Below, piece after piece: positions 127 through 35,192 of a stretch of 35,319 nucleotides of DNA. The stretch is taken from positions 1-35,319 of the forward strand of contig JAGSHF010000008.1 in the NCBI GenBank assembly GCA_023954685.1, read 5' to 3'. A model generated the notes under the pieces. The model saw only the letters and a list, made by a program, of their open reading frames with translations. It did not search any database and was not told where the DNA came from. The position numbers and the translations under genes were made by a program. Within the stretch, counting starts at the first letter, position 1; each line of letters starts with the position of its first letter. The DNA is from Flavobacteriaceae bacterium. Lineage in GTDB: Bacteria; Bacteroidota; Bacteroidia; Flavobacteriales; Flavobacteriaceae.

Positions 127-1488
127 GTGGATAACGTAGGAGACAATAAAACAGATAAATCGAAAGAAATTATTGTTCGGGAAGCAAACGAACTGGTTGA
201 AGCGAATTATAAATTTGATATTTGGGAAGATCGAATTTTCTTAATGACTTTGGCTCAAATTCGCCCTAGTGATGAAGATTTTAAAGAATATAAGATTTAC
301 ATTCGAGATTTGGTTACTAAATATGGAATCAACACCAATAATGTGTACAATTTGGTACGTAATGCTGTGGAGTCTTTACGCAAAAAGAAAATTACAATTC
401 CCCAACGATTTGGAGAAGATATGGGATTGTTGACAACTGGTTTGTTAGCTGCTTATGGGGAAGTGAGCAAGGAGGAAGCTTCCTATGTGGTGGTCGAGCT
501 ACATCCTAAATTGAAACCCTATTTATTGCAACTAAAAGAGCGCTTTACTCAATATAATATTTCATTTTTAATGAAAATGCAAAGTTCGCATTCAAAGCGA
601 ATTTACAAGCTGCTCAAGCAATATGAAAAAATTGGATTTCGCCGTTTTGGGATAAAGCAATTAAGGAAGATCCTTTGTATTGAGAATGGAGAATACGAAC
701 GCTATTATGACTTTAAAAGAAGGTTTATATACAAAGCTCAAAAAGATTTAGAAAAGTATACAGATCTGATTTTTAGTTTTGAAGAAAAGAAGAAAGGACG
801 AAGAGTAGTTGAAATTGTATTTTATATCTCGCCTAATCCTAACAAACCTGAATTTCAAAATATGGCAGAAGAAGAGTTTTTGGCATTAAAATCAGTTAGT
901 CCTAAAATAGCAGAAGAAGCTACAGGTTTATATGCAGAAGTAGAGACTTGGGGAGTAACAAAAGACACTTTTGTGAAGTATTTTGAGGCTAGAGGAATCA
1001 AGCATGTAGAGACTTGTATCGAAATCACTAAATCATCTAAAAATACAAAAGATAAGGCTGCATATTTTGTGGCATTATTAAAGAAAGAAGAGGTTTTAAA
1101 TTCTAAAAAATCAGGTCAATCTTCAATTGATGCAGAACGACTAAAACAACAAAAAATTAAGGCCTTAGAACAGGAGTATAAAACTGCTGTGGAGGAGTTG
1201 AAAGCAAAGAAGTACAATGAAGAACAAGCACTCATTATAGAGATGCTTTCAGAAGAAAGTTTTATTGGAGAGTTGAATGCACAACTTCAAGTTATTGGCA
1301 AGTGGCCTAATGATTATAATGAGAGCTTATCCTTCATGGAAAATTATCAACAAAATCGCTTCTTTAAGATTAAAATTGCCAATATAATTATTGAAACATA
1401 TCCTGATTTATTTACTTCTGTAAATGCAAAGCATGATTATAAGATGAGCCGACTTAGGTCTAAATATCAAGAGGCTCTAAATACTTAA
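127..1488 (+). CDS. Rep_3-family plasmid replication initiator, copy 1
   Basis: 453-aa initiator of the Rep_3 (RepB-type) superfamily. It should bind the adjacent iterons and open the origin for theta replication. Residues about 10-130 (ANELVEANYKFDIWEDRIF, then the RDLV and SLRKKKI helices) match the first winged helix. About 140-240 (FLMKMQSSHSKRIYKLLKQY, LRKIL, FKRRFI) match the second. Residues 250-453 are an extension, with a charged probable coiled coil near 335-370; many family members lack such a tail. The start is GTG, whereas the second copy at 35193 has ATG at the equivalent base. The stop overlaps the end of the convergent Lrp gene by 4 bp. Family assignment is confident; host range and copy control are not visible. 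Confidence 0.93.
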   Translation: MDNVGDNKTDKSKEIIVREANELVEANYKFDIWEDRIFLMTLAQIRPSDEDFKEYKIYIRDLVTKYGINTNNVYNLVRNAVESLRKKKITIPQRFGEDMGLLTTGLLAAYGEVSKEEASYVVVELHPKLKPYLLQLKERFTQYNISFLMKMQSSHSKRIYKLLKQYEKIGFRRFGIKQLRKILCIENGEYERYYDFKRRFIYKAQKDLEKYTDLIFSFEEKKKGRRVVEIVFYISPNPNKPEFQNMAEEEFLALKSVSPKIAEEATGLYAEVETWGVTKDTFVKYFEARGIKHVETCIEITKSSKNTKDKAAYFVALLKKEEVLNSKKSGQSSIDAERLKQQKIKALEQEYKTAVEELKAKKYNEEQALIIEMLSEESFIGELNAQLQVIGKWPNDYNESLSFMENYQQNRFFKIKIANIIIETYPDLFTSVNAKHDYKMSRLRSKYQEALNT

Positions 1489-2824: not shown

Positions 2825-2835
2825 ATAGAAATTAA

Positions 2836-2868
2836 ACGTTAAACGTGCAACGTTGCACTTGCAGCGTT
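2836..2868. repeat. ACGT heptad array 1 (downstream of parB)
   Basis: Five 7-bp units have their core tetranucleotide starting at 2836, 2843, 2850, 2857 and 2864: ACGT, ACGT, ACGT, ACTT, GCGT. The register is exact. It lies between the convergent marC-like and parB-like genes, immediately before the marC terminator stem. See the finding on dispersed heptads. Confidence 0.85.
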
Positions 2869-2869
2869 C

Positions 2870-2910
2870 CTAAAATAGGAGCAATTCAATTGCTCCTATT
2901 TTAGTTTTTT
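2870..2910 (+). terminator. Rho-independent terminator after the MarC gene
   Basis: A 15-bp perfect stem (2870-2884 with 2890-2904) with a 5-nt loop is followed by TTTTTT at 2905-2910 on the plus strand. Its right arm overlaps the last codons of the opposite-strand parB-like gene (stop at 2896-2898), so it is also under coding constraint. Confidence 0.85.
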
Positions 2911-3234
2911 CTCAAAGATTTTTAGAAATACATCTTTCATATTCTCGTCTCCTAATGGACGAACTTGCTGAAAATAATAATCTAAGGCATTTGCTAACAA
3001 ATCTGCAATAGATTCATCTCCTTCATGTGTAGCCGCCTCCAAGGTAGCTCGTTGTTCAGGAGTAATTGCAGTGGTAAATGGAATGCGTTTAGGCTTTATT
3101 TTTTTCTGTAGTATTTCTTCTCCAGATACTTTTGAAATGGTTTTTTCTACTTCTTCTTTTGAGGGTAATTTTCCCCCGGTTTTCTTTTTCAAGTCTAAAC
3201 TAAAATTGCTTGTCTTGGATCGTTTTTTACTCAT
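2896..3234 (-). CDS. Small ParA partner, putative ribbon-helix-helix centromere-binding protein
   Basis: 112 aa, basic N-terminal half (KKRSKTS, KKKTGGKLPSK, KKIKPKR). It is followed at about residues 50-90 by a segment reading RIPFTTAITPEQRATLEAAT then ESIADLLANALDYYF, which fits a beta strand plus two helices of a ribbon-helix-helix fold. Its ATG overlaps the parA stop by 8 bp (ATGAGTAA), the tight coupling usual for type Ib parA-parB pairs, where the partner is a small DNA binder rather than a classical ParB. Expected role: bind the centromere, repress par and stimulate ParA ATPase. Three ACGT heptad arrays surround the operon and are the obvious candidate targets. Partner role is supported by context; fold is by pattern only. 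Confidence 0.75.
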   Translation of the reverse strand: MSKKRSKTSNFSLDLKKKTGGKLPSKEEVEKTISKVSGEEILQKKIKPKRIPFTTAITPEQRATLEAATHEGDESIADLLANALDYYFQQVRPLGDENMKDVFLKIFEKKLK

Positions 3235-3925
3235 CTTTTAATATTTTTACAAATTCATTCAACCAAACGGTAAAGTTCAATTTTGCTTTATCTAATGCAT
3301 TTACATCATACAAACTATTAAAGGTGTTAATGTCTTCAAAAAGAGTATAATTTCGCAATCTTGTCATCATAAAATTAACGCCTGCTGTCTTTAGGTTTTC
3401 TATTTCAATAATAAGATCTGTATTGGTTTTTGATCGATCACGATACATATTAACGAACCCACAATAGTGTAAAGGTCGTTCAGAATTAGCTCTTAACTCT
3501 TCCAATTTTACAACCATTTTAAGATATTCCAAACTAGCATCTAGATTGAAATTTCCTGCACGAAAAGGAATGAATAGATGGTCTGCATACATTAGAGCTT
3601 TGGTGATTTCTTGTTGTTGGATATCTAAGTTAATATCCAAACGACCAGCAGTATCAATAAAGATGAGGTCATACTTTTGATCCAAGAGGTGAATTTGTTC
3701 CTGTAATCCTTCTAAATCCAGATCAACTACATCATAAGGCAATTCTCCTTTCCAATCTTCTAGATCGAAATTTCGGGCTTCTATAATACTTTTTTGACGA
3801 TCATTATCAATAATACAAACATCGAAATTGAAGGGAGCTTGTGAAAGTGCATTTGCACAAAGGGTTGTTATTGTGCTTTTCCCTACTCCTCCTTTCTGAT
3901 TCCCAAAGATGATTATTTTACTCAT
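3227..3925 (-). CDS. parA: ParA-type plasmid partition ATPase
   Basis: 232 aa, the short ParA class without an N-terminal DNA-binding domain. The deviant Walker A motif KGGVGKST is at residues 11-18. Motif A' (CIIDNDRQKS) is at 37-46 and the Walker B region DLIFIDTAGR at 86-95. Such ATPases form nucleoid-bound gradients that move plasmid copies apart together with a centromere-binding partner, here the overlapping downstream gene. A heptad array lies 8-47 bp upstream of the start codon, well placed for operon autoregulation and as the centromere. ParA family is certain; its cargo (this replicon) is inferred from linkage with rep. Confidence 0.93.
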   Translation of the reverse strand: MSKIIIFGNQKGGVGKSTITTLCANALSQAPFNFDVCIIDNDRQKSIIEARNFDLEDWKGELPYDVVDLDLEGLQEQIHLLDQKYDLIFIDTAGRLDINLDIQQQEITKALMYADHLFIPFRAGNFNLDASLEYLKMVVKLEELRANSERPLHYCGFVNMYRDRSKTNTDLIIEIENLKTAGVNFMMTRLRNYTLFEDINTFNSLYDVNALDKAKLNFTVWLNEFVKILKDE

Positions 3926-3932
3926 AAACTAA

Positions 3933-3972
3933 ACGTTAAATGTTAAGCGTGTAACGTAAAACGTTGCACGTG
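3933..3972. repeat. ACGT heptad array 2 (parA upstream region)
   Basis: Six consecutive 7-bp units with cores at 3933 (ACGT), 3940 (ATGT), 3947 (GCGT), 3954 (ACGT), 3961 (ACGT) and 3968 (ACGT), with no break in register. The array fills the leader between the parA start (3925) and an AT-rich probable promoter zone near 3972-4000. That is the position expected for a partition operator/centromere. Confidence 0.88.
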
Positions 3973-4058
3973 TAAATTTAAAATATAATTTGTTATCTCT
4001 CTAAAGATATGATAAAATCTAGCTTTTGTCAAGTTTTTTGTAGAAGGAATCAATTAAC

Positions 4059-4098
4059 ACGTTTAACGTTGCACATTAAACGTGAAACGTTAAACGTG
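4059..4098. repeat. ACGT heptad array 3, also an 18-bp inverted repeat
   Basis: Six in-register units with cores at 4059, 4066, 4073 (ACAT), 4080, 4087 and 4094; five are exact ACGT. The flanks make a perfect 18-bp inverted repeat (4053-4070 with 4086-4103, 15-nt loop) that includes the stop codon of the thioredoxin-fold gene at 4099-4101. It could therefore fold as a 3' hairpin in that transcript as well as bind protein. Confidence 0.85.
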
Positions 4099-5241
4099 TT
4101 AATCTTTTGATTTTTTGGATTGGTTGGCTTTCATTTGATATATTTTTGCATGCTTGAGCAAGCCAGCATCTTGGTAGAGAATTGCTAGAATACTAAAAAC
4201 TTCATAGCCTTGGTAGAGCTTTTCTGCTTGTTCTCCCCAAGCAAAAGCCTTGGCTTGTAGATCTTCTTGCCCTTGAGCTAAGTCATAGTAAGTGGTTGCA
4301 GCTTGAATATATTCAATTGCTTTTTCTTTCCCATCAGGCATTTTTGAAACCACTTTTGTTATAAACTCATCAAGAGTGTGACGCATTGCAGAGCGTTGGT
4401 TGTGCTGTTGATGATATCGAAACTTGAAAAGGAGTAAATGTTCTAAATATTCTTCCTGTCCAAAATAACGAACAAAGATAGGCTTGGCTTTTTCAAAATC
4501 AGGCTTTGCACTTGAATTATCCAAAAAGTCTAAAATGACATCAAGCACCAACATCATCCGTTTTTCATGCACAGCTTCTTTCCCAAAAATTTTTTCAAAA
4601 TCGGTAGCATGGATCAAAAAATAATTGAGGGCTACAGTATCTCGTTCTTCTGCTAAATCAAAAATAATTTGCATAGCATCGGTAGAAGACCAATCTTTTT
4701 GGTTTTTAAGAAAGGATTTAAAGTAGGGCTGATAGTTTTTACCTTCTTCTTTTAAGTAATAGGTGTAGTGGAAAAGGCTTTTTTCATTTTTAATAGGTGC
4801 TCTAGATTTTAAATGTTCAGCAATATCTAGAGCTGCTTGTCCATAAGTGATAAATTCTTCAGCGACTTCAGTTACACCTATTTTTTTATAAATCAACTCA
4901 TAGTCTGAATTAAAATAGAAGAGGGTTGGGATAGATTCAATAGGGTGATCATCACTAAAAACACTCCCAATCACAGATTCTAAATCAATCTTGCAGTTGA
5001 TGAAATGTTCCTTATGAAAATTGGCGACTATTTTATCCTTAAAAATTTTTTGATCTAATATTTTACAAGGACCACACCAACTAGCATAAGCATCTATAAA
5101 CAGAATTTTATCTTTCTTTTTAGCTTTACTTTTAGCTTTACTGAGTTGATTGTGTATAAATATTATTTTTTGAGCTTGAATTTCTTCTTGATAGCTTAGA
5201 AAGGCATAAAATACCCCTAAAAATAGAATGAGCTTTTTCAT
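4099..5241 (-). CDS. Exported thioredoxin-fold protein with C-terminal helical repeats
   Basis: 380 aa. Residues 1-23 look like a signal peptide ending QAQ, so the protein is probably periplasmic. A thioredoxin domain follows: WCGPCK active site at 55-60 and the cis-proline loop SIPTLFYF around 103-110. The C-terminal two thirds (about 140-380) is helical and TPR-like, without a recognisable catalytic motif. The redox-active CxxC predicts disulfide reductase or isomerase activity; the substrate is unknown. It overlaps the upstream gene by 4 bp (ATGA), so the two are co-translated and probably work together in the periplasm. Thioredoxin fold is confident; pathway is not. Confidence 0.82.
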   Translation of the reverse strand: MKKLILFLGVFYAFLSYQEEIQAQKIIFIHNQLSKAKSKAKKKDKILFIDAYASWCGPCKILDQKIFKDKIVANFHKEHFINCKIDLESVIGSVFSDDHPIESIPTLFYFNSDYELIYKKIGVTEVAEEFITYGQAALDIAEHLKSRAPIKNEKSLFHYTYYLKEEGKNYQPYFKSFLKNQKDWSSTDAMQIIFDLAEERDTVALNYFLIHATDFEKIFGKEAVHEKRMMLVLDVILDFLDNSSAKPDFEKAKPIFVRYFGQEEYLEHLLLFKFRYHQQHNQRSAMRHTLDEFITKVVSKMPDGKEKAIEYIQAATTYYDLAQGQEDLQAKAFAWGEQAEKLYQGYEVFSILAILYQDAGLLKHAKIYQMKANQSKKSKD

Positions 5242-7873: not shown

Positions 7874-9754
7874 TTAATAGGCGCGCTCATCAATACCTTC
7901 CACAAAATTGATGAATGCTTTATTTACCACTTTATTTCCTCCAGGAGTTGGATAATTACCACTAAAATACCAATCTCCATGATGTTGATTACAGGCCTTC
8001 TTCAAGCCTTCTAAACCTTGGTAAATAACTTCTACTTTTGCATGAACGGCTTTAGGTTTGACAATTTCTGCTATTTTATTGCTAATTTCTCCAACAGAAA
8101 AAGGTTCATAGATACGTTTTACATGATTAACTACTTTTTCTTTGGGCAATTCAAGTTGTCTTAAGCAGTCTTTATAAACTTGATCAATGAGGTCTGTTTG
8201 ACCGCTTTCTTTGATTAGTTCAATAGCTGCTCTAAAAGCAACAAAATCTCCTAGTTTGGCCATATCAATCCCATAACAATCAGGATATCGAATTTGAGGT
8301 GCAGAAGAGACAATAATAACTTTTTTAGGATTTAGACGATCTACAATTCTTAAAATAGATTGGCGAAGAGTTGTTCCCCTCACAATAGAATCATCAATCA
8401 GTACCAAGGTGTCTATATGATCATTCACAACTCCATAAGTTACATCATAGACATGAGCCACTAAATCATCTCTAGAATCATCTTGTGTGATGAATGTTCT
8501 TAATTTTGCATCCTTGATTGGTATTTTTTCCGCTCGAGGAGAAATAGACAAGATTTTTTTTATTTGTTCTGGAGTAGCCTTTCCACCTAAAGCATTTATT
8601 TGCTCAGTTTTTTTGAGGGAGAGTGCCGCATGTGCAGCTTTTACCATACCAAAGAAGGAAACTTCTGCAGTATTTGGGATATAACTAAAAACAGTATTTT
8701 CAAAGTCATAATTGATGGCTTCAAAAACTTGTTTAGATACATTCTGACCTAATTGAAGACGTTCTTCATAAATTTCTTTATCAGAACCTCTTGAAAAATA
8801 GATGCGTTCAAAAGAACAAGCTAACTTTTCTTTTGGAGAAATAATTTCCTTTTCTTCTGCATCACCTGCTTTATTGACAACTAAGGCATGTCCAGGTTTT
8901 AATTCTTGGACATCTTCAAAATAAACATTAAAAGCGGTTTGAATTGCAGCACGTTCTGATGCAGCTACGACAACTTCATCATCCTCATACCAATATCCTG
9001 GTCGAATACCATTAGGATCTCTGAAAATGAAAGCATCTCCATGACCAAACATCCCTGAAATTAAATATCCTCCATCCCAATCATTACTAGCTCTACGCAA
9101 TATTTTCTGGACATTAAGATTTTCTGCAATGAGTTGAGAAATCTCTACATTGCTGTGCCCTTGAGATTTGAATTGATCAAAAAGAAGCTGATTTTCTACA
9201 TCTAAAAAGTGGCCAATCTTCTCCATCACAGTGACAGTGTCAGCCTTTTCTTTTGGGTGCTGACCAATAGAGACCATAAAGTCAAATAACTCATCTACAT
9301 TAGTAAGATTAAAATTTCCAGCAACTACTAAATTCCTAGTTTGCCAGTTATTTTGTCTTAAAAAAGGATGACAACTCTCAATACTATTTTTTCCATAAGT
9401 ACCATAACGAAGATGTCCTAGTAAAACTTCTCCTGTAAAGGCTTCATTGTTATACAAATGGTCAACATCTTTTAGTAATTCAGGACTATTTTTTTCTAGG
9501 TGAACAAAACGCTTATTGATATAATCAAAGGTGTCTTGAATAGGCTTACGGCTATTGCTTCTGTATCTTGAAATATAACGATTCCCTGGTTCTACATTTA
9601 GTTTAATGTTTGCTACACCTACACCATCTTGACCTCTATTGTGCTGTTTTTCAAGTAACAAGTAGAGTTTATTGATTCCATAAAAAGGAGTATTATATTT
9701 GTCCAAATAATATTGGATAGGTTTCTTTAAGCGAACAAAAGCAATTCCACACAT
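7874..9754 (-). CDS. purF: Amidophosphoribosyltransferase (glutamine PRPP amidotransferase)
   Basis: 626 aa, the long Bacteroidota form (enteric PurF is about 505). It catalyses the first committed purine step: PRPP plus glutamine to 5-phosphoribosylamine. The Ntn-type glutaminase domain starts at the nucleophile Cys2 (MCGIAFV), which is exposed after Met removal. RGQDGVGVA (40-48), GHLRYGTYG (113-121) and NDWDGGY (224-230) are glutaminase motifs. The C-terminal PRTase domain has the PRPP loop LVLIDDSIVRGTT at 450-462. It is the last gene of the minus-strand purine block, 28 bp after purN, with no promoter evident in between. In other bacteria this enzyme is feedback-inhibited by purine nucleotides. 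Confidence 0.96.
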   Translation of the reverse strand: MCGIAFVRLKKPIQYYLDKYNTPFYGINKLYLLLEKQHNRGQDGVGVANIKLNVEPGNRYISRYRSNSRKPIQDTFDYINKRFVHLEKNSPELLKDVDHLYNNEAFTGEVLLGHLRYGTYGKNSIESCHPFLRQNNWQTRNLVVAGNFNLTNVDELFDFMVSIGQHPKEKADTVTVMEKIGHFLDVENQLLFDQFKSQGHSNVEISQLIAENLNVQKILRRASNDWDGGYLISGMFGHGDAFIFRDPNGIRPGYWYEDDEVVVAASERAAIQTAFNVYFEDVQELKPGHALVVNKAGDAEEKEIISPKEKLACSFERIYFSRGSDKEIYEERLQLGQNVSKQVFEAINYDFENTVFSYIPNTAEVSFFGMVKAAHAALSLKKTEQINALGGKATPEQIKKILSISPRAEKIPIKDAKLRTFITQDDSRDDLVAHVYDVTYGVVNDHIDTLVLIDDSIVRGTTLRQSILRIVDRLNPKKVIIVSSAPQIRYPDCYGIDMAKLGDFVAFRAAIELIKESGQTDLIDQVYKDCLRQLELPKEKVVNHVKRIYEPFSVGEISNKIAEIVKPKAVHAKVEVIYQGLEGLKKACNQHHGDWYFSGNYPTPGGNKVVNKAFINFVEGIDERAY

Positions 9755-9782
9755 CTTTATATACGGTTTTTGTATTTATTTC

Positions 9783-10355
9783 TTAATGCTGTTCAAAAAG
9801 TTCTTTTAGGGCTTTACTGTAAAACAGATGTTCTATAGCTAAACCTCTTTTCTCCACTTCTTCCAAATTATCAGCACCAACTAAATTTACTTCAGCTTGT
9901 CCAATAATTTCTCCAGTGTCTAGATCCTCGTCTACATAATGTACTGTGACCTTAGTTTGTTCTAATTTTTCTTCAAATGCCCATTTGTAGCCATCTAAAC
10001 CTTGGTGTTGATAGGTGTCAGCTGGATGTATATTGATGATACGTTTGGGGAATGTTTGGGTGAATTCTGGGCTCAAAATTCGCATATAGCCTGCTAATAT
10101 GATATAATCAACAGAGTGATTTTTTAGCATTTGAATCACTTCTTGATCAAAATCAGCGCGTTTTTTTCCTTTTGATGGGATAACTTCTGTTGGGATATTT
10201 TTACTCTTAGCATATTCTAAACCTGCAGCTGAAGCTTTATTAGAAAAAATCAAAATAGGTTTGGCAATTCCCTCCAATACCCCATTTTTACAAGATTCTA
10301 CAATAGCTTTCATATTGCTACCTCGACCAGAAATAAAGATGGCGATAGTTTTCAT
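9783..10355 (-). CDS. purN: Phosphoribosylglycinamide formyltransferase
   Basis: 190 aa from the ATG at 10355. A longer frame reaches 10412, but its first 19 residues overlap purD and the family start is MKTIAIFISGRGSN, so the inner start is chosen; it leaves a 10-bp gap after purD. It transfers the formyl group of 10-formyl-THF to GAR. The phosphate-binding SGRGSN (9-14) is present, and the expected catalytic triad is present as Asn108 and His110 (INIHPADTYQ) and Asp146 (DEDLDTGEII). The segment around HPADTYQHQGLDGY differs from the enteric HPSLLP form. No purT is seen, so formyl-THF-dependent synthesis is the route encoded here. Confidence 0.93.
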   Translation of the reverse strand: MKTIAIFISGRGSNMKAIVESCKNGVLEGIAKPILIFSNKASAAGLEYAKSKNIPTEVIPSKGKKRADFDQEVIQMLKNHSVDYIILAGYMRILSPEFTQTFPKRIINIHPADTYQHQGLDGYKWAFEEKLEQTKVTVHYVDEDLDTGEIIGQAEVNLVGADNLEEVEKRGLAIEHLFYSKALKELFEQH

Positions 10356-10365
10356 AATTTTGCCT

Positions 10366-11610
10366 TTAGTTTGATCTTCTTCCAATATCTTTGCGATAAA
10401 AATGACCTTCAAAGCTGATTTTAGCCACTTCTTTGTAGGTATTTTGAATAGCTTCCTCTAGAGTAGGAGCTTGAGTTACTACATTTATAACCCGACCACC
10501 ATTGGTTTTAATCACTTCATTTTCGGCTTTAGTCCCAGCATGGAAAATAAGGGTACCTTTTTCTACTTGATCTAATCCGTAGATAGGAAATCCTTTTTGA
10601 TAAGCTTTAGGATATCCTCCTGAAACCATAACAACATCCACAAAATAGCCTTTATTAAATTCCAATTCTAAATCTGATAAACTACCATTCAGACAAGCCA
10701 AAACCAAATCCGATAAATCTGTTTTTAGAGAAGGGAGAATAACCTCTGTTTCTGGATCGCCCAATCGGACGTTGTATTCTAAAACTTCAGGGCCATTTTC
10801 TCCAATCATTAACCCAAAATAAATAACACCTTTGTAATCAAATCCTTCTGCTTTTAGCCCATTTATTGTAGGAATGATCGCATTTTCTTGAATGGCTTTT
10901 TTTAGTGTTTCATTATAAAATGGAACAGGGCAAAAAGCACCCATACCACCTGTATTGGGACCAAGGTCTCCTTCTAATAACTGTTTGTGATCTTGAGAAG
11001 GGAGGAGGAGGCGAATATTTTGGCCATCTGTAAACCCGATAATAGAAATTTCTTTTCCAACAATTTTATCTTCCATCAAAAAAGGAAATGCTTTCCCATA
11101 TTTTTCTTGCAATTCGTCCAAAGCAATCTCCACTTCTTCCATATTATCACAAACAAAAACACCTTTTCCCGCAGCTAAACCATCATATTTGATAACAAGA
11201 TTTCCTTTTTTGCTTGTTGCATATTCATGAGCACCCTCCAATGATTGAAAGGATTTGAAGTCAGCTGTGACAACACCATGTTTTTTCATAAACTCTTTAG
11301 CAAAAATCTTAGAGCCTTCTAATTGAGCAGCAGTTTTATCTGGACCAAAAACCTTGATGTCAGTTTTTTCTCTAAAATAATTGACAATCCCATTTGCTAG
11401 TGGATCCTCTGGCCCTACAAAAATCAACTCAATAGCATGAGCTTCGCAAAAACCACGAACAGCTTCAAAATCATTAATATCTACTTTATGGGAATTCGGA
11501 ATACCTCCATTTCCAGGAAGGGTAAAAACCTGATCCCAACCCCATTTTTGTGCAAATTTCCAGGAAAGAGCGTGCTCGCGGCCACCTGAGCCTAATACAG
11601 CAATATTCAT
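10366..11610 (-). CDS. purD: Phosphoribosylamine-glycine ligase
   Basis: 414 aa, normal length (about 420-430). It condenses phosphoribosylamine, glycine and ATP into GAR, the second step of the pathway. The N-terminus MNIAVLGSGGREHALSWK is the family signature. The ATP-grasp core shows VIKYDGLAAGKGVFV, the HKQLLEGDLGPNTGGMGAF loop, and the EYNVRLGDPETEV metal/ATP motif. The 81-bp gap to purB upstream holds ACGT heptad array 4, which ends 17 bp before this start codon, so purD could have its own control point or internal promoter. Confidence 0.96.
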   Translation of the reverse strand: MNIAVLGSGGREHALSWKFAQKWGWDQVFTLPGNGGIPNSHKVDINDFEAVRGFCEAHAIELIFVGPEDPLANGIVNYFREKTDIKVFGPDKTAAQLEGSKIFAKEFMKKHGVVTADFKSFQSLEGAHEYATSKKGNLVIKYDGLAAGKGVFVCDNMEEVEIALDELQEKYGKAFPFLMEDKIVGKEISIIGFTDGQNIRLLLPSQDHKQLLEGDLGPNTGGMGAFCPVPFYNETLKKAIQENAIIPTINGLKAEGFDYKGVIYFGLMIGENGPEVLEYNVRLGDPETEVILPSLKTDLSDLVLACLNGSLSDLELEFNKGYFVDVVMVSGGYPKAYQKGFPIYGLDQVEKGTLIFHAGTKAENEVIKTNGGRVINVVTQAPTLEEAIQNTYKEVAKISFEGHFYRKDIGRRSN

Positions 11611-11626
11611 TTGGATAGAATTTTTA

Positions 11627-11680
11627 ACGTTAAACGTTTAAAGTTTCATTTTACACATGCAACGTCAAACGTTGCACGTG
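11627..11680. repeat. ACGT heptad array 4 (purB-purD gap)
   Basis: Eight positions in 7-bp register: cores at 11627, 11634, 11641 (AAGT), 11648 (ATTT, degenerate), 11655 (ACAT), 11662, 11669 and 11676. Five are exact ACGT. The right half also forms a 16-bp inverted repeat with one mismatch (11650-11665 with 11669-11684, 3-nt loop). Confidence 0.82.
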
Positions 11681-11691
11681 TAAATTCCCCC

Positions 11692-13053
11692 CTAAAGGAG
11701 GACTTTAGTTTTAGCAAGTACCAGATCGCAGATACGAACAGCATCTCCAACATAATCAATGGATTCCATCTTGTTGCAATAGTCTTTCATCTCTTGTGGG
11801 ATATCCAAACTATTGACTAATTCCACCAAAGATTCCTTGGTTGGTTTTTTGCCACGAGAAGCTTTTTTGAGTAGTGTATAGGGGTCATCAACACCTACTG
11901 TTTTAAGGACAGTCTGAATTGGTTCAGCTAAAAGTTCAGGACTATCATTCAATTCCTCAATACATTTAGCTTCATTTAATTGTAGCTTTTTTAAGCCTCG
12001 CATTGTTTCTACAATTGCAATAAATGAATAACCTAAAGCTGCTCCCATATTACGTTCTACAGTAGAATCTGAAAGGTCACGTTGCATCCGAGAACGACAG
12101 AGTTTGTCAGAAAGTACAGTTAGCATTCCATTAGCTAACATCAAATTCCCTTCGCTATTTTCAAAATTGATAGGATTTACTTTATGTGGCATAGTCGAAG
12201 ATCCAACTTCATTAGCTTGAGATTTCTCATAAAATAATTCATAAGAAATATATAACCAACAATCCACATCTAAATCCATAATGATGTTATTCAGACGTCG
12301 AGTGTAATCAAAATAAGCTGCCCAAGTATCATGATCCTCCACTTGAGTAGTTGCAATATTGGGTTCAATATCTTGATCTTTCATAAATTGATGACAGAAT
12401 GTCAACCAATCATAATCTGGAAAGGCAGCCATCATTGCGGAGTAATTACCTACTGCCCCACCTAATTTCCCATAAAAACGGAAAGCTTTTAATTCTTTGT
12501 AAATTCGAGCAATTCGATTAACAAATACAGCTAGCTCTTTTCCTGCAGTGCTAGGAGAGGCTTTTTGACCATGTGTCTTAGATGGAAAGGGAACTGTCTT
12601 CCATTGATCTGCCAGAGCCATCAATTTTTCCAATAGCCCTTTGATTTGAGGCAGTTGTTCTTGCTCTAAATAATCTTTGAGCATAAAGGTATAAGCTAGA
12701 TTATTAGCATCTTCTGAAGTTAATGCAAAATGCAATAAATGCACATTACGCAATTGTGTGCGTTCACGCAGGAAGATTTCACAAGCTTTCACATCATGCT
12801 TGGTAACTGCTTCAATTTCTTTAATGCGATTGTAATCTTTTTCAGTGAAATTATCAATACAATCTTGAATATTAGCTTTTTCAGTATCATTTAAGGGCTC
12901 AAAAAGGCCTGTTTTGTCCAAAGCTAGAACATAGAGCAATTCCATTTTACAGCGATAATACATCAATGCATATTCTGAAAAATAATTGCCATGATTAGGT
13001 AGTTTTGAGGCATAGCGCCCATCTAAGGGGGATACTGCTTTATAAAGTCCCAT
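11692..13053 (-). CDS. purB: Adenylosuccinate lyase
   Basis: 453 aa, matching the gammaproteobacterial-type length (about 455). It cleaves SAICAR to AICAR in IMP synthesis and adenylosuccinate to AMP. The fumarase/aspartase superfamily signature SSTMPHKVNP is at residues 285-294, and the conserved THGQKASP with His161 is present. The N-terminus LYKAVSPLDGRYASK is typical. It follows purC by 13 bp in the purine block. Because it also serves AMP synthesis, it would need PurA, which is not in this window. Confidence 0.96.
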   Translation of the reverse strand: MGLYKAVSPLDGRYASKLPNHGNYFSEYALMYYRCKMELLYVLALDKTGLFEPLNDTEKANIQDCIDNFTEKDYNRIKEIEAVTKHDVKACEIFLRERTQLRNVHLLHFALTSEDANNLAYTFMLKDYLEQEQLPQIKGLLEKLMALADQWKTVPFPSKTHGQKASPSTAGKELAVFVNRIARIYKELKAFRFYGKLGGAVGNYSAMMAAFPDYDWLTFCHQFMKDQDIEPNIATTQVEDHDTWAAYFDYTRRLNNIIMDLDVDCWLYISYELFYEKSQANEVGSSTMPHKVNPINFENSEGNLMLANGMLTVLSDKLCRSRMQRDLSDSTVERNMGAALGYSFIAIVETMRGLKKLQLNEAKCIEELNDSPELLAEPIQTVLKTVGVDDPYTLLKKASRGKKPTKESLVELVNSLDIPQEMKDYCNKMESIDYVGDAVRICDLVLAKTKVLL

Positions 13054-13066
13054 TATTATTGTTGTT

Positions 13067-14008
13067 TTAAGCTAGTTCTAATGAATCATTTTCTGCCAGA
13101 AGTCCTGATTTTTTGAGGTTTTGGCGAATTCTTTCTCCTAAATCAGCCACAGGTACATCTAATTTGCTCCCTGTTACCATTTCATAAATCTCCTCATAAC
13201 GATTTGTTGTTTCCTCAATCACTTCAGGAGCTAAAATCAAAGGCACTTCACCATCAATTTTATTAGCTAACATCCACTGACGGACAAATTCTTTGTCAAT
13301 TTGCTCTGCAGTAGTGGGATTTTTCTCATAATCGGACTTACGCCAAAAACGAGAAGAATCTGGAGTATGCATTTCGTCAATTAAAATCAATTGACCATCC
13401 AACAGCCCAAACTCGTATTTGGTGTCTACTAGAATGATTCCTTTTTCTGCTAAGTATTCAGAGCCAAAATTGAAAATTTCTAGGGTTTTAGCCTGCATTT
13501 GTTCCCAAATTTCGGCTGAAACAAGACCTGTTTTTACAATCTCTTCTGGAGTAATAGGGCTGTCATCCTCATCTTTGGTTGTAGGGGTGATGATTGGAGT
13601 AGGAAATTTTTGATTTTTGCTCATTCCTTCGAGAATTAGAGCCCCACTAAATTCGCGTTCACCAGCTTCATAGCCTCTCCAGATCGATCCAGTCAAATAT
13701 CCACGTACAACCATCTCCACTCGGATTGGTTCAGCTTCTTTTACCAACATCAAGTTGGGATCAATCATCTCAATCACATGATTTGGAATGATGTGTTTGC
13801 TTTGTTCAAACCAAAAATTGGCAATGCCATTCAAAACAGCTCCCTTATTAGGAATTGGTGTTTTGATTTTCTTATTAAAAGCAGAAATACGGTCTGTAAC
13901 AACAATCAAACGAGTATTTTCGTCTACTTGAAGACTGTCTCGCACCTTACCACGATGCAAAAACTCCAATTTGCTGCTGTTGGTTTCTAATTTTTTAATG
14001 CAACTCAT
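13067..14008 (-). CDS. purC: SAICAR synthetase
   Basis: 313 aa, longer than the 237-aa enteric enzyme and close to the about 300-aa form of yeast and many Bacteroidota. It joins aspartate to CAIR using ATP. Signatures include HRGKVRDSLQV with TDRISAFN near the N-terminus, VEMVVRGYLTGSIWRGYEAGE in the middle, and ILVDTKYEFG then LIDEMHTPDSSRFW (the substrate and Mg-ATP site). The start ATG lies 5 bp after the purH stop, implying translational coupling. Its substrate CAIR requires PurE/PurK, which are not encoded here. Confidence 0.96.
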   Translation of the reverse strand: MSCIKKLETNSSKLEFLHRGKVRDSLQVDENTRLIVVTDRISAFNKKIKTPIPNKGAVLNGIANFWFEQSKHIIPNHVIEMIDPNLMLVKEAEPIRVEMVVRGYLTGSIWRGYEAGEREFSGALILEGMSKNQKFPTPIITPTTKDEDDSPITPEEIVKTGLVSAEIWEQMQAKTLEIFNFGSEYLAEKGIILVDTKYEFGLLDGQLILIDEMHTPDSSRFWRKSDYEKNPTTAEQIDKEFVRQWMLANKIDGEVPLILAPEVIEETTNRYEEIYEMVTGSKLDVPVADLGERIRQNLKKSGLLAENDSLELA

Positions 14009-14013
14009 TTGAA

Positions 14014-15630
14014 TTAGTGTTTGAAGTGGCGAATGCCAGTTAACAACATACTTACTCCTAAATTATCACAAGCCTCAATCACTTGTTTGTCACGAATAGA
14101 ACCACCTGGTTGTACAATTTGGCGAATACCTTCAGCTGCGGCAAGTTCTACATTATCTGCAAAAGGGAAAAATGCATCAGAAATCATTACAGCACTACCC
14201 AATTCACGCTCATAATAAGCTTGAGCAGCAATTGCTTCAGCTCCTAGTTCACGATCAAGATTTTCTTTTGCTTTTTCAATGGAAAGTTTGGTGGCAATGA
14301 GGCGATTTGGCTGACCAGCACCCATTCCTAATAATTGCATGCAGTTTCCATGTTGGCGAACCAACACAATGGAGTTGGATTTGATACTGCGAATAGCCCG
14401 AAGCCCGAATTCTACAAGACTTTTGTGTCCTTGAGCATCAAACTCTTTGGTTGTTACAGATTCCATCTTATTGTGGAGGAAATCATCTGTATCTTGAGCC
14501 AACAAACTACCATTCAAATAACGATAATCTACCTTATAATCTAAATCTTCGACATTCAACTCAATAACACGTAGATTTTTGTGTTTTTGGAGATAAGCTA
14601 AAGCATCTGCTTCAACTTTAGGAGCAATAACTACCTCAACAAATTTACGTTTGCTACGATCTTCATGATCTAAATCAAAGAATTTAACTGTTTCTAATTT
14701 CAAATCGCTGTTGAATGCGACAATAGAACCAAATGCAGAGATGGGGTCACCAGCCCAAGCCAATTCCATGACTTTGCGTTGGTCATCTCCTTCTGCTAAA
14801 CCACATGGGTTGTTATGTTTGACAACTGAACAAGCAATTTCTGTACTACCCTTGATAGATTCTAGTGCACCATGAATATCTAAGATATTATTGAAAGAAA
14901 GTGCTTTGCCATGCAAGACTTTCATATCAGCTAAAGAAGGTTTGTCTGTAACTTCGCGATAATAACTAGCCGCTTGATGGCTATTTTCACCATAACGAAG
15001 TGTTTTTCCTCCTTTAAAGTTAAGACGGAGGGATTGCTCTCCTACTTCCTTGTCCATTGCCATGGCAATCATCGAATCATAATCTGCAGTATGATTGAAG
15101 GCCTTAGTCATCAATCGTTGGCGAAATTCATAAGATAATGCACCATTGTTGGCTTCTAATTCTTGGACTAATTCAGCATAATCAGAAGGATCTACCACCA
15201 CAGCAACATGCTTGAAGTTTTTGGCAGCAGAACGCACCATTGTAGGACCTCCAATATCAATATTTTCAATTAAAGTCTCAAAATCAGCACCAGCCTCCAT
15301 CACTTTTTTGAAAGGGTAAAGATTACAAACTACCAAATCAATGGCTTCAATTCCCAAAGATTTTGCCTCTTCTGCATCACGATCACGATCAAAAAGTAAA
15401 GCAGATTCAATGTTGAAAGAGATTGTTTTCATCCGGCCACCAAAAGCTTCAGGATTACCTGTAACAGTTGAGATTTCTGTTGTAGAAATACCAGCATCTT
15501 CTAGTTTTTTGCGTGTTCCACCAGTAGAGATGATTTCGCAATTTTGAGCAACTAATGCTTTGGCTAAAGATTCGACTCCTGTTTTGTCAGATACACTTAA
15601 TAATGCACGGCGAATAGGTACGAGACTCAT
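14014..15630 (-). CDS. purH: Bifunctional AICAR transformylase / IMP cyclohydrolase
   Basis: 538 aa, usual length. It catalyses the last two steps to IMP. The N-terminal MGS-like cyclohydrolase domain (about 1-200) opens with RRALLSVSDKTGVESLAKAL and has IISTGGT and DLVVCNLYPF. The C-terminal transformylase domain (about 205-538) has LRYGENSHQ, SVVKHNNPCG and the substrate loop region GMGAGQPNRL. Local wording such as GRMKTISFN in place of the enteric GRVKTLHP marks a divergent lineage. Array 5 lies 46-77 bp upstream of the start, in the gap after purQ. Confidence 0.95.
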   Translation of the reverse strand: MSLVPIRRALLSVSDKTGVESLAKALVAQNCEIISTGGTRKKLEDAGISTTEISTVTGNPEAFGGRMKTISFNIESALLFDRDRDAEEAKSLGIEAIDLVVCNLYPFKKVMEAGADFETLIENIDIGGPTMVRSAAKNFKHVAVVVDPSDYAELVQELEANNGALSYEFRQRLMTKAFNHTADYDSMIAMAMDKEVGEQSLRLNFKGGKTLRYGENSHQAASYYREVTDKPSLADMKVLHGKALSFNNILDIHGALESIKGSTEIACSVVKHNNPCGLAEGDDQRKVMELAWAGDPISAFGSIVAFNSDLKLETVKFFDLDHEDRSKRKFVEVVIAPKVEADALAYLQKHKNLRVIELNVEDLDYKVDYRYLNGSLLAQDTDDFLHNKMESVTTKEFDAQGHKSLVEFGLRAIRSIKSNSIVLVRQHGNCMQLLGMGAGQPNRLIATKLSIEKAKENLDRELGAEAIAAQAYYERELGSAVMISDAFFPFADNVELAAAEGIRQIVQPGGSIRDKQVIEACDNLGVSMLLTGIRHFKH

Positions 15631-15675
15631 GAAAAATGTATTTATGTTAATTTTTAGATTAGTTTCTAATTAACC

Positions 15676-15708
15676 ACGTACAACGTTAAAAGTTAAACGT
15701 TTCACGTG
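15676..15708. repeat. ACGT heptad array 5 (purQ-purH gap)
   Basis: Five units in register with cores at 15676, 15683, 15690 (AAGT), 15697 and 15704; four are exact ACGT. It occupies most of the 86-bp gap between purQ and purH. Confidence 0.83.
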
Positions 15709-15716
15709 CAATTTTT

Positions 15717-16553
15717 TTATTCAGCTTCAACTTCCCTTTGTTCAAGTACATGATTTACAATATTTTTGAAAATTTGTAAACCGTCTCCTTCCTCAGAAAT
15801 GTTAGGATTTTTTCGTTTGATTTGTCCCCAATTAGGATGATTATACAAACTTAAAAATGCTTCAGGGTGAGGCATTAAACCAAAAACCTGACCAGTAGGA
15901 TCACATAAAGCTGCACAATTCAATTCTGAACCATTTGGGTTCTGAGGGTATTCGGAAATCTCGGTGCCATCTGCTAAACAATAAGTCATGCAATTTAATG
16001 CTTTGGTTTTTACAATTTGTCGCATAGTATCATTCCCAAAAACCAATTTACCTTCTCCATGGCGTATAGGTAAGGGTAGAATATCGATTCCTTTCAAGAA
16101 TGGAGTTTCCGACATTTTATTGACCTTACAATAAACCCAGCGATCTTCATATTTAGAAGAATCGTTATGAGCTAAACTAGCTTGTTGGGTAAATCGAAGA
16201 TTGCTATTGGGCAAAAGTCCCAAACGTACCAACATTTGAAAGCCATTACAAATACCCATCACATATTTTCCATCATCCAAAAACTGCTTAATTTCTTCTA
16301 AAAGCGTTTTGCCTGAGGGTAATTTTTTATATCGGATTTTATTAGCCATGACCTTACCTGAAGAAAGGTCGTCTCCAAAAGAGAAGCCACCAGGAAAATG
16401 TAAAATATCATATTGGTGAATAGAGTACCCATTCACTAAAACTTGATTGAAATGTATAATATCTGCATTTGCTCCAGCCATACGATAAGCTGCAGCAGTT
16501 TCCTCTTCGCAATTGATGCCAAATCCTGTTAATACTAATACTTTAACCATCAT
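15717..16553 (-). CDS. purQ: FGAM synthase glutaminase subunit
   Basis: 278 aa, longer than the about 225-aa Bacillus PurQ. A class I glutamine amidotransferase that supplies ammonia to PurL. The nucleophile Cys102 is in MGICNGFQ and the His229/Glu231 dyad in LMPHPEAF; the oxyanion region HFPGGFSFGDDL is also present. Two adjacent ATG codons open the frame, so the start could be 16550. It follows purL after 105 bp, in which I see no array or terminator. PurQ and PurL should form a complex; here they are separate genes, unlike enteric bacteria, where one chain carries both. Confidence 0.94.
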   Translation of the reverse strand: MMVKVLVLTGFGINCEEETAAAYRMAGANADIIHFNQVLVNGYSIHQYDILHFPGGFSFGDDLSSGKVMANKIRYKKLPSGKTLLEEIKQFLDDGKYVMGICNGFQMLVRLGLLPNSNLRFTQQASLAHNDSSKYEDRWVYCKVNKMSETPFLKGIDILPLPIRHGEGKLVFGNDTMRQIVKTKALNCMTYCLADGTEISEYPQNPNGSELNCAALCDPTGQVFGLMPHPEAFLSLYNHPNWGQIKRKNPNISEEGDGLQIFKNIVNHVLEQREVEAE

Positions 16554-16658
16554 ACTGATTTGATAATTTGTCCCAAAGATATTCCTTCAGGGATGAGGAG
16601 GCAATTTGATGATAGCTTACCTCTCATGATGTTTTATTGTTTGATAATTGAGAATTAT

Positions 16659-19600
16659 TTAGATGCCAAGACCTTCATTCCAAGCATTTTGCAATAACTC
16701 ATTTTTCAACTGTACCAAAACTTCCCCCTCTTCTTTAATTTCTAATGAGGGGTATTCTGTTACTGTTCCTAAGAAAGTAGCTCGTTCACCCATTAACTCT
16801 TCAAAAGCCTCTTTATTTTCTGGGGCGATTGACACTACAAAACGAGAATGAGATTCAGAAAACAAACGAACAACTGAACCAAGATTAGGTAATTGATCTA
16901 ATTCAATTTTTGCCCCTAATGTTCCTCCAAATGCAGATTCAGTTAAAGCAACAGCTAAACCTCCATCAGAAAGATCATGACTTGAAGCAATTAAAGCTTG
17001 TTTATTTGCTTCCATCACTTTTAAATAAAGTCCTTTGGCAGCTTCTTTTCGAACTTTAGGTACATTTGCACCTAAAACACTCCAAAGATTATAGAATTCT
17101 GAAGCACCTAACTCATCATAAGTTTCACCTAATTGATAAATAAGATCTCCTGCCATTTTGAATTCAGAAGTAACAGTTTGACGAACATCATTCAACTTTG
17201 AGGTCATTGAATAAAGAATAGTTGGAGGAATTGAAATTTTCTGACCATCAGCCTTAAAATCATTTTTCATACTATCCTTACCTGAAGTTAATGGAATATC
17301 AAAATAGGTAGCCATATCGTACAAAGCTTCACACATTTGCACCAATTTGGCCAATTTTTCCTTTCCATCAGGATTATTCACCTCATCATAAAAAGAATCT
17401 GGCACACAAAAGTTATCGTTAATAGACCAGAAAACACCATCTCCCTCTTCAGTATTTGGTAGGCGTCCCCCAACTGAAACAATCTGACGCACAGCTTCAT
17501 CAAAAGCACCCGCTGACATTTCATAGGCATCAATATCACCATAACGAGGTAAGATTCCATTAGAAATAGCCACCCCCTCATAACTTTCAAAACCAAAGCG
17601 CATTACTCCAGCATCTTGAGGAGCACGACCTTCAGGTCCCATTAAAGGTTTAACAATCGTTTTCCCTTTTACTTCATGATCATATTGTCGGATGATGTGT
17701 TCACGAGAACATATATTCAAACTTCCCATCAACTGGAGGAGAATATCATTATAATCTAATTCATCTGTAATTTCAGGTTCTTCCAAACCCAAATCATTCC
17801 ACTCAGCTTGCATGATTTTTGTAGGAACACCATCATGTAAAAACTTCATTTGAATATAAGCTATTTGTTCTTCTTCATAACGTATATCTAAAAAGCCAGA
17901 ATTCGTAAATGTTCCAATATTGCTTAATTCAACTTCCATTAGAGCTGCTAAAGCAAAGAGTTCTTCTAAGTTCTCTGATTCTACAACCAAAGACATCCGC
18001 TCTTGAGATTCAGATACAAAAATCTCCCAAGGTTTCAAACCCGCATACTTTAGAGGGACTTTATCTAGATGAATTAAAGCACCACCTGTAATTTCTGCTA
18101 GTTCTCCTACTGAAGAAGAGAGCCCACCAGCACCATTATCAGTACTACTCTTGATCAACCCTTTTTCGCAAGCAATCAACATAAAATCATACATCTTCTT
18201 TTGAGTGATTGGGCTACCAATTTGTACAGCAGACATTGGAGAATGTTCATCAATTTCAATGGAAGAAAAAGTAGCTCCATGAATACCATCTTTTCCAACA
18301 CGACCACCTGCCATAATAATATGGTCACCTGCATCAATTGGTTTTTCCCAACTATTTTTCCCTTTAAAATCATAAGGTAAAATTCCACCTGTACCACAAT
18401 AAACCAAAGGTTTTCCACTATATCGTTCATCAAAAACAATAGAACCATTCACAGTAGGTACACCTGACTTATTTCCACCTGCTTCAATTCCTGCAACTAC
18501 CCCTTCCATAATTCGGCGAGGATGTAATTGCCCAGTCAGAAGTGGTTTGTCATAATTAGGAGGTCCAAAACAAAGTACATTGGTATTAAAAAGGAGTTTA
18601 GCTCCACCAACACCCGTTCCTAAAGGATCTCGATTATTCCCTAAAATACCAGTTATAGCTCCACCATAAGGATCTAATGCAGAAGGAGAATTATGTGTTT
18701 CTACCTTCCAAACAAATAACTTATCATCAGTTGCTTTTACAACACCTGCATTATCTGTAAAAACTTTCACCAACCAATCATTTCCTTTTGCTGCAAGACT
18801 TTCTGCAACTTTGTCAGTAGCTCCTTTGATGTAAGTTTTGAAAATAGAAGTAATCGTTTTTTGTTCTCCTTTTACTTTATCTTCATAATGAATAATGGCA
18901 TTAAATTCTTTATGCTTACAGTGTTCTGACCAAGTCTGTGCTAAAACTTCCAACTCACAATCAGTTGGGTGAATAGGCAAGCCCATCTCTTCGCGTTTTG
19001 CTTTAATTTCAGGATTCAGATAATAATCCCGAATAGCTTGCATCTCTTCTAAATTCAATGCAAGTACTTTGACTTTAGATAGTTGAATTAGCTCCTCATC
19101 TTTTAAGCCCTCTAACGCTACAAATTCAATGGTATTATCAATCTCCATTTTCACTTCAGGAACATAATAATTCATTTCAATCTTTCCCGATTCTAGCCCA
19201 GCATAAACATAAGTGAAGTGATTGATTAAAGGGTTGCCCAATAAGCGTTCTCCCACCAATTTGAGTTGATCTTCACTCAACTTCTTCTCAAAAAAATAAA
19301 TATATTGAGAGAAAATATGTTGGGTATTCACATCCAACTCCAAATTGAAAAAATCTGCCAAAGCCATCTGAGCAGAGGTTCCTTCATCATCAGTTACACC
19401 GGGCAATTGAGCCACTGCTACTGCACAAGCAAAGTCAATTGGTTCAAAATAACTATTTACTAAAACCTCATCTGTTATATTATCTTGAATACAACCTTCC
19501 GCAAAAGCTTGAAGTTGTTCTTCTGTCAGATCGTAGTTAATAGAAAATAATTGAGCAGTTTTGACTTTGCCCGTGTTGATGTTGAGTTGAGATTTTGCAT

Positions 19601-19673
19601 TTTGCTCAATACTGTTGCCTTTGGCATCAGTGATGTTATCTCTAAAAAAGCGTTCTATTGTGTTGTAAGACAT
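16659..19673 (-). CDS. purL: FGAM synthase large subunit with fused N-terminal PurS-like region
   Basis: 1004 aa, between small PurL (about 740, needing separate PurS and PurQ) and the large single-chain enzyme (about 1300). Residues about 1-165 are a PurS-like duplicated region. The two catalytic lobes follow, with HPTDCELEVLAQTWSEHCKH, VETHNSPSALDPYGG, GGAKLLFNTNVLCFGPP and TDNGAGGLSSSVGE. The C-terminal glutaminase is missing and is supplied by purQ just downstream. It is therefore best read as a PurS-PurL fusion. It converts FGAR to FGAM with ATP. The start lies 31 bp after the T run of the purM terminator, so transcription is either read-through or driven by an unrecognised promoter. Confidence 0.93.
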   Translation of the reverse strand: MSYNTIERFFRDNITDAKGNSIEQNAKSQLNINTGKVKTAQLFSINYDLTEEQLQAFAEGCIQDNITDEVLVNSYFEPIDFACAVAVAQLPGVTDDEGTSAQMALADFFNLELDVNTQHIFSQYIYFFEKKLSEDQLKLVGERLLGNPLINHFTYVYAGLESGKIEMNYYVPEVKMEIDNTIEFVALEGLKDEELIQLSKVKVLALNLEEMQAIRDYYLNPEIKAKREEMGLPIHPTDCELEVLAQTWSEHCKHKEFNAIIHYEDKVKGEQKTITSIFKTYIKGATDKVAESLAAKGNDWLVKVFTDNAGVVKATDDKLFVWKVETHNSPSALDPYGGAITGILGNNRDPLGTGVGGAKLLFNTNVLCFGPPNYDKPLLTGQLHPRRIMEGVVAGIEAGGNKSGVPTVNGSIVFDERYSGKPLVYCGTGGILPYDFKGKNSWEKPIDAGDHIIMAGGRVGKDGIHGATFSSIEIDEHSPMSAVQIGSPITQKKMYDFMLIACEKGLIKSSTDNGAGGLSSSVGELAEITGGALIHLDKVPLKYAGLKPWEIFVSESQERMSLVVESENLEELFALAALMEVELSNIGTFTNSGFLDIRYEEEQIAYIQMKFLHDGVPTKIMQAEWNDLGLEEPEITDELDYNDILLQLMGSLNICSREHIIRQYDHEVKGKTIVKPLMGPEGRAPQDAGVMRFGFESYEGVAISNGILPRYGDIDAYEMSAGAFDEAVRQIVSVGGRLPNTEEGDGVFWSINDNFCVPDSFYDEVNNPDGKEKLAKLVQMCEALYDMATYFDIPLTSGKDSMKNDFKADGQKISIPPTILYSMTSKLNDVRQTVTSEFKMAGDLIYQLGETYDELGASEFYNLWSVLGANVPKVRKEAAKGLYLKVMEANKQALIASSHDLSDGGLAVALTESAFGGTLGAKIELDQLPNLGSVVRLFSESHSRFVVSIAPENKEAFEELMGERATFLGTVTEYPSLEIKEEGEVLVQLKNELLQNAWNEGLGI

Positions 19674-19704
19674 AAATTAATCTCTTGATTTCGAGTTAAA
19701 TCTA

Positions 19705-19735
19705 TAAAAAAAGACCGTCCGTTTTGGACAGTCTT
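19705..19735 (-). terminator. Rho-independent terminator after purM
   Basis: On the minus strand a 9-bp stem (AGACTGTCC with GGACGGTCT, one U-G pair, AAAAC loop) runs straight into seven T. It begins 7 bp after the purM stop and separates purM from the purL-to-purF run. It may be partial, giving purM higher expression than its downstream partners. Confidence 0.88.
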
Positions 19736-19741
19736 CGCTAT

Positions 19742-20821: not shown

Positions 20822-20926
20822 TTAGCCTTTTTTTATTGAAGATTTAATTCTAAAAGCTCCATTTGCACTGCTTTTCTACCTTATTAAAAATAAGATGCAA
20901 ACCTCCTTCGCCCCCCAAAGAAAGTG

Positions 20927-20934
20927 CAAAATTA
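20927..20934 (-). promoter_or_regulatory. -7 promoter element for purM
   Basis: On the minus strand the element reads TAATTTTG, an exact TAnnTTTG match, 106 bp before the purM ATG. The predicted leader of about 95 nt holds a G run, a small hairpin (CTTATT/AATAAG) and a TTTGCA/TGCAAA pair enclosing it. I could not match it to a known purine or ZTP riboswitch. Confidence 0.5.
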
Positions 20935-21032
20935 GATTCTTTTCCTTGCTTTTCATAGGATAACGGGTGAAAATTAACAATAAATTAACCTAGGTTTTGT
21001 TCAAAAATGTGTAGAATATGGATTTTCATCCT

Positions 21033-21040
21033 TAAATTTG
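21033..21040 (+). promoter_or_regulatory. -7 promoter element for guaBA
   Basis: TAAATTTG matches TAnnTTTG and lies 78 bp before the guaB ATG, back to back with the purM promoter (about 100 bp apart). This makes 20822-21117 a divergent control region for IMP and GMP synthesis. No good -33 TTTG is seen. Confidence 0.45.
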
Positions 21041-21102
21041 CTCGCAATTTTTTTGGAAATCACAGCATGTAAAAAACTCGAAGGAGTGGGCTATGTGCAT
21101 AA

Positions 21103-22572
<1,470 letters not shown>

Positions 22573-22622
22573 AGCAAAGTTATCCAACATCTATCTTTCA
22601 GACTCTTACAAACTTATATAAA

Positions 22623-27191: not shown

Positions 27192-27307
27192 AGTTTCAGT
27201 TTTTGAATAAAGGCAAATAAGCATCCCAAGTCCATCTTGAGACACCTCATTTTTAGTATAATGATGAAAGGTTAAAAGGTTACAACTTTATCCTAAATTT
27301 ATCTTAG

Positions 27308-27332
27308 ACGTTACACGCTAAACGTTAAACGT
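27308..27332. repeat. ACGT heptad array 6 (lipoprotein/pyrEF divergent gap)
   Basis: Four units in register with cores at 27308 (ACGT), 27315 (ACGC), 27322 (ACGT) and 27329 (ACGT), the shortest of the six arrays. It lies in the 287-bp gap between two divergent genes; the rest of that gap holds the pyrEF -7 box and AT-rich DNA. Confidence 0.75.
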
Positions 27333-27432
27333 GTATGCTATTTATTTTCTATTCTTTTCTCTAAACTTCCTAAATTCAAATATTTTCAAGAATAGATTTA
27401 ACAAATAGGCTATATTTTTCATGGACTTGTTG

Positions 27433-35015: not shown

Positions 35016-35130
35016 AAAAACGACAGATTTAGGACTAAAAACGACAGATTTAGGACTAAAAACGACAGATTTAGGACTTTCGAACGACAGATTTAGGACT
35101 AAAAACGACAGATTTAGGACTAAAAACGAC
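35016..35130 (+). repeat. Direct iteron array upstream of rep copy 2
   Basis: Five complete tandem copies (35016-35036, 35037-35057, 35058-35078, 35079-35100, 35101-35121) with a 21-bp period, one being 22 bp (TTCG replacing AAA at its start), plus a half copy AAAAACGAC at 35122-35130. The inverted half copy GTCGTTTTT follows at 35145-35153, as in copy 1. Confidence 0.93.
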
Positions 35131-35192
35131 TTATTTTTTTTGTTGTCGTTTTTTAGTTTTATATTGCTTTTCAGCATAAATTTTAGTGAAAA

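Follow-up and report, generated by a model that had tools for sequence, protein, structure and literature searches.

In descriptions of type Ib plasmid partition systems, the centromeres are local sites found at the promoters of par or of plasmid-maintenance genes. In the par2 system of pB171, parC1 and parC2 flank parAB, and we know of no dispersed distal arrays belonging to it. The delta/omega system of pSM19035 uses heptads: one omega dimer binds per heptad, full activation of ParA takes a minimum of four contiguous heptads, and the sites double as operators; the plasmid has heptads at three separate sites, all of them in two copies (PMC9499535, PMC5016525). These sites lie at the copS, delta and omega promoters, their unit WATCACW is non-palindromic, and delta and omega are transcribed separately. 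In ParF/ParG of TP228, a type Ib system, the RHH protein is small and encoded downstream of its ParA, and the centromere is one continuous upstream site (PMC5016525). Sites scattered over the replicon are found in type Ia plasmids (N15, the OB sites of KorB; PMC5016525), where inverted-repeat iterons go together with an HTH ParB.

Here we compare with these systems a par locus in a window of 35,319 nt, the whole stretch of DNA analysed. The window is a plasmid, and the replicon is circular, since positions 1-253 overlap positions 35067-35319 at 98%. The overlap runs through 21-bp iterons (35016..35130), which adjoin rep, and through the start of the gene for a Rep3-type replication initiator (127..1488, plus strand). 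Five mismatches between the terminal overlaps suggest that two variants of the plasmid were present in the sample. The cargo (7874-24155 and 27479-28891) comprises a near-complete set of purine-pathway genes (purF-like, purN, D, B, C, H, Q, L, AIR synthase-like, guaB and guaA) and a pyrF/E-type fusion; the replicon is chromid-like. Its host is uncertain. The contig (G000:C229) is one of 242 in a 3.04-Mb bin, its genes match Saprospirales, and a second purH in the bin, on contig C233, is 40% identical to the plasmid copy. Cargo and Rep thus point to Saprospirales, whereas the bin has a divergent purH of its own; the contig has probably been misbinned or transferred, and the source looks like a Saprospira-like bacterium.

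The par operon is read from the minus strand. The first gene, parA (3227..3925), encodes a Walker-type ATPase of 232 aa and overlaps the partner gene by 8 bp. The P-loop NQKGGVGKST occupies residues 9-18, so that there is no N-terminal DNA-binding domain (HTH). The protein matches AAA_31/ParA-type Pfam families, and a PDB search returned ParF as its closest solved relative by sequence. No relatives emerged when IMG/VR was scanned with ParA and with the partner. A Walker ATPase nearest to ParF, encoded in an operon that is conserved in the Aureispira plasmid pAUEa (see below), upholds the original prediction, which had called this a par operon.

The second gene (2896..3234, minus strand) encodes a 112-aa protein, the putative centromere-binding partner and analogue of parB, omega or parG. 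Alone, it matches no Pfam family above threshold. A profile built from the partner and three Aureispira relatives was searched against 5826 ORFs from 82 loci with ParA genes, the ParA scan of genome contigs having given, among the matches listed, distant ParA loci; the top four ORFs all adjoin parA and lie just downstream of it, and three of these four have RHH_10 matches (E 4e-5 to 4e-4) that fall short of the curated cut-off. A wider family profile gave nine matches among all PDB sequences, eight of them RHH proteins, although more distant family members may partly drive these matches. They include ParG (E 0.013) and omega (E 0.18), as well as 2kel and ORF56, which are RHH proteins. By hhalign, with omega and ParG sequences checked against the PDB, the same segment of the partner aligns with the RHH domains of ParG (P=2e-5) and omega (P=3e-4). 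These profile comparisons argue that the partner is of RHH ancestry, as had been proposed from a probable RHH segment. Structure prediction, put forward as a check, gave weak models. The single-sequence AlphaFold model was uninformative and the six-sequence one somewhat better; the latter has, at modest confidence, helices 59-71 and 76-91, corresponding to the RHH pair, and a further C-terminal helix, but the strand is absent and the ribbon was not modelled (mean pLDDT 48 and 62 for the single-sequence and six-sequence models). Being a monomer, the model is compatible with RHH or with another fold. Foldseek found nothing significant for it, the match to pCXC100 ParB having an E of 6.7. Type Ib partners bind the centromere repeats, stimulate the ATPase of ParA and have a flexible N-terminal tail with an arginine finger; here the N-terminus is conserved and basic (KKRSxTSxFSL) and forms a low-confidence coil in the model.

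A period-7 scan of the window revealed six arrays of the unit MACGTKN. Three surround the par operon, where the original prediction had placed them. Array 1 (2835..2868, five units) lies in the gap between the convergent MarC and partner genes and ends 28 bp from the end of the partner stop codon at 2896; array 2 (3932..3972, six units) occupies the leader of parA, which starts at 3925; array 3 (4058..4098, six units) follows 85 bp further upstream, 1 bp less than predicted. The description of an operon bracketed by three arrays is accurate as far as it goes and incomplete, because three distal arrays, 7.5-12 kb from the operon around the circle, had been missed and the motif is in fact dispersed over the plasmid. 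They are located in the purB-purD gap (11626..11680, eight register positions, the central ones weak), in the purQ-purH gap (15675..15708, five units) and in the gap that separates the OMP decarboxylase/phosphoribosyltransferase gene from a divergent ORF (27307..27333, four units). Thirty dinucleotide shuffles of the window contained no period-7 array of MACGTKN. When no unit model is assumed, 35 of 36 pairs of ACGT at most 35 bp apart are spaced by exact multiples of 7. None of the six arrays includes a coding base, although the intergenic share of the plasmid is 13.8% (chance about 7e-6). At loci L050, L052 and L053, in other Bacteroidota, perfect or near-perfect heptads of other sequence (ATTGCCT, AACTAAT and CAACTGA) stand near ParA genes.

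The unit consists of a near-palindromic six-base site and one free base. Across 34 units the core is conserved (A 94%, T 97%, C and G 88%), in part by construction, as positions 1-6 served to find the arrays. Position 7, which was not used, carries 0.17 bit, and neighbouring units are identical there at a rate of 0.29. A conserved core with a free seventh base is what one would expect of an array of binding sites, unlike copied tandem repeats. This bears on a rival reading, in which we are dealing with ordinary STRR-like repeats (dispersed tandem heptamers, e.g. TAACTGA) that came to lie near par by coincidence. Repeats of the TAACTGA type occur in Beggiatoaceae, cyanobacteria and some Bacteroidota, and intergenic heptamers of other sequence are known in this last phylum (PMC4679880). 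Tandem heptads of other motifs do accompany some ParA genes, and AACGTTC/AACGTTG arrays occur on unrelated IMG/VR contigs that lack this ParA. In those IMG/VR arrays of the same motif, however, neighbouring units agree at every position (0.65-0.99), as in copied repeats, a comparison to be read with their retrieval in mind: the search pattern accepted exact matches, a bias towards regular arrays, but left position 7 free. On the plasmid, by contrast, the units are not mutual copies outside the core. The IMG/VR contigs had been considered as relatives; having near-perfect unit copies and no related ParA, they were treated as unrelated. In the rest of the 3.0-Mb bin, sites with up to two mismatches occur only at control level, which also speaks against ordinary repeats; since the plasmid may have been assigned to the wrong bin and its true host may be another organism, this is a weaker control than the Aureispira plasmid pAUEb.

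Aureispira anguillae provides both a relative and a contrast. Its plasmid pAUEa (NZ_AP026868.1) has the order AsnC-MarC-partner-parA, as in the window plasmid, with ParA 66% and the partner 54% identical. It carries eight MACGTKN arrays, all between annotated genes. Three precede parA, one occupies the gap between the convergent partner and MarC genes (92945-92999, the counterpart of array 1), and four are distal, near unrelated genes and not near pur genes. With operon and flanking heptads shared, arrays have been retained on both flanks of par in two diverged plasmids. The strain's other plasmid, pAUEb, contains no MACGTKN array in 87 kb, and none is present on the CCB-E plasmid. Both encode a ParA that is 42% identical and a different partner of 89 aa, and in both, TTCTAGAA palindromes are clustered upstream of parA, a candidate third centromere code (L027 2739-4700 for pAUEb and NZ_CP133672.1 36751-37744). 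The putative DNA-contacting strand of the partner, KRIPFTTA, is identical in the two plasmids with MACGTKN and different in plasmids without the motif. Eight arrays against none within one strain, together with the retention of the motif at both par flanks, make a chance vicinity of ordinary repeats to par improbable in our judgement. The same comparison, arrays on the pAUEa flanks and none on pAUEb, supports the proposal that the arrays are a candidate centromere.

With respect to the described systems, the locus shows the sequence features of type Ib: an N-terminal Walker A motif without HTH, a small downstream partner with an RHH profile, and iterated upstream sites. With delta/omega of pSM19035 it shares an RHH partner, a ParA that lacks an HTH, arrays of four or more 7-bp units, the presence of several such arrays at separate places on one plasmid, and arrays at the par promoters (PMC9499535, PMC5016525); the six arrays here have 5, 6, 6, 8, 5 and 4 units, the array of eight being weak in its middle part. 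It is nevertheless not delta/omega itself, as motif, operon layout and array placement differ. The unit is near-palindromic, parA and partner form one operon with overlapping genes, arrays lie also in a convergent gap and in gaps between metabolic genes, and the partner is unlike omega in having 112 aa and, by prediction, an additional helix at the C-terminus. ParF/ParG is matched in the small downstream RHH protein with its ParG profile match, in a ParA nearest to ParF and in the order parA-then-partner, but the window plasmid has several heptad arrays in place of a single site. The par2 system of pB171 likewise has two centromere regions, parC1 and parC2, with parAB (PMC4270457), and its motif is unrelated to MACGTKN. 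Scattered sites are shared with type Ia plasmids, which differ in having no RHH partner of the present kind. The original prediction had regarded the motif on both sides of the operon as an uncommon layout. Both sides do carry it, but pB171 par2 and pSM19035 provide precedents, the latter already for separate heptad sites on one plasmid; what is truly unusual is the distal arrays rather than the two-sided layout.

Taken together, we consider it likely that the locus is a type Ib-like ParA-RHH partition system with a delta/omega-like mode of action, in which the arrays are candidate parS sites and operators. The six heptad clusters are most likely docking sites, candidate centromeres that serve to bring the plasmid into each daughter cell. 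The RHH protein would bind as a row of dimers, one per MACGTKN unit, over four to eight units, and, by analogy to delta/omega and ParF/ParG, the protein-coated array and the ParA ATPase would form a segrosome that moves the plasmid. A candidate par promoter (TTG N20 TATCTTT; 4003..4032, minus strand), matching the Bacteroidota-type consensus, is located between arrays 2 and 3, a placement that fits autoregulation. Because these two arrays flank it, the partner is probably an autorepressor acting on its own operon through them. Array 1 and the distal arrays may serve as additional parS sites. As array 1 lies between converging genes, where it can hardly regulate initiation, it is the array most likely to be a pure parS.

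The position of arrays 2 and 3 around the candidate promoter would also suit a system of operators only, with the RHH protein as a plasmid-wide regulator of par and nucleotide-synthesis genes and partition relying on another site. The distal arrays, upstream of purD, purH and pyr genes, agree with this as well. We regard it as unlikely, given that array 1 lies between convergent genes in both plasmids, that the distal arrays of pAUEa are near unrelated genes, and that other type Ib partners do both jobs at the same sites (PMC5016525). A PurR-like role as purine regulator, suggested by the pur cargo, was rejected, since the pAUEa arrays are not near pur genes. In the partition system that we favour, the distal arrays could additionally affect the nearby pur and pyr genes.

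Saprospira grandis and CCB-QB6 have plasmids with the same cargo (guaAB, purLQHCBDNF, pyrF, tryptophan dioxygenase, MarC and AsnC), with purH 64-65% and Rep about 44% identical to those of the window plasmid; the S. grandis plasmids with nucleotide-biosynthesis cargo measure 53-55 kb. Their ParA has only the Walker region in common with the window ParA, and their partner, of 76 aa, is RHH-like (RHH_10 E 0.0014, below cut-off). The Saprospira plasmids have no MACGTKN arrays. Instead, each of the two that were scanned has 11 arrays, dispersed over the plasmid, with TAAMGAAN as their 8-bp unit, where shuffles gave one at most; the S. grandis arrays are all noncoding, and on both plasmids one array lies about 85 bp upstream of parA. 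The spacing of TAAMGAAN is almost always a multiple of 8 (L134/L135, L136/L137). Dispersed arrays, one of them beside parA, are therefore seen again where both the motif and the par pair differ. The gaps that hold the distal heptad arrays of the window contain other repeats in Saprospira, so that some distal arrays may be passengers. These findings suggest that plasmid-wide centromere arrays turn over together with the par module. A wider scheme, which we offer tentatively and hold to be somewhat doubtful, is that in Saprospirales dispersed short tandem operators are distributed RHH centromeres, the whole set being swapped with the par module (heptads MACGTKN, octads TAAMGAAN), and that the sites draw the replicon together in a single partition complex, to which the expression of nucleotide-synthesis genes would be coupled.

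Established here are the arrays, their conservation, their link to the par pair, the identity of ParA and, at profile level, the RHH ancestry of its partner. New are a palindromic heptad code in Bacteroidota, its spread into gaps between metabolic genes and an apparent replacement of the array set together with the par module. Two related plasmids with one par family use a single heptad code across the replicon, and the same cargo with another par pair goes with a different 8-bp code, spread likewise. If the link holds, such plasmids would form natural pairs in which to study how a DNA motif is specified by the RHH strand, and the question of why a plasmid has many scattered partition sites would become directly testable on a 35-kb plasmid.
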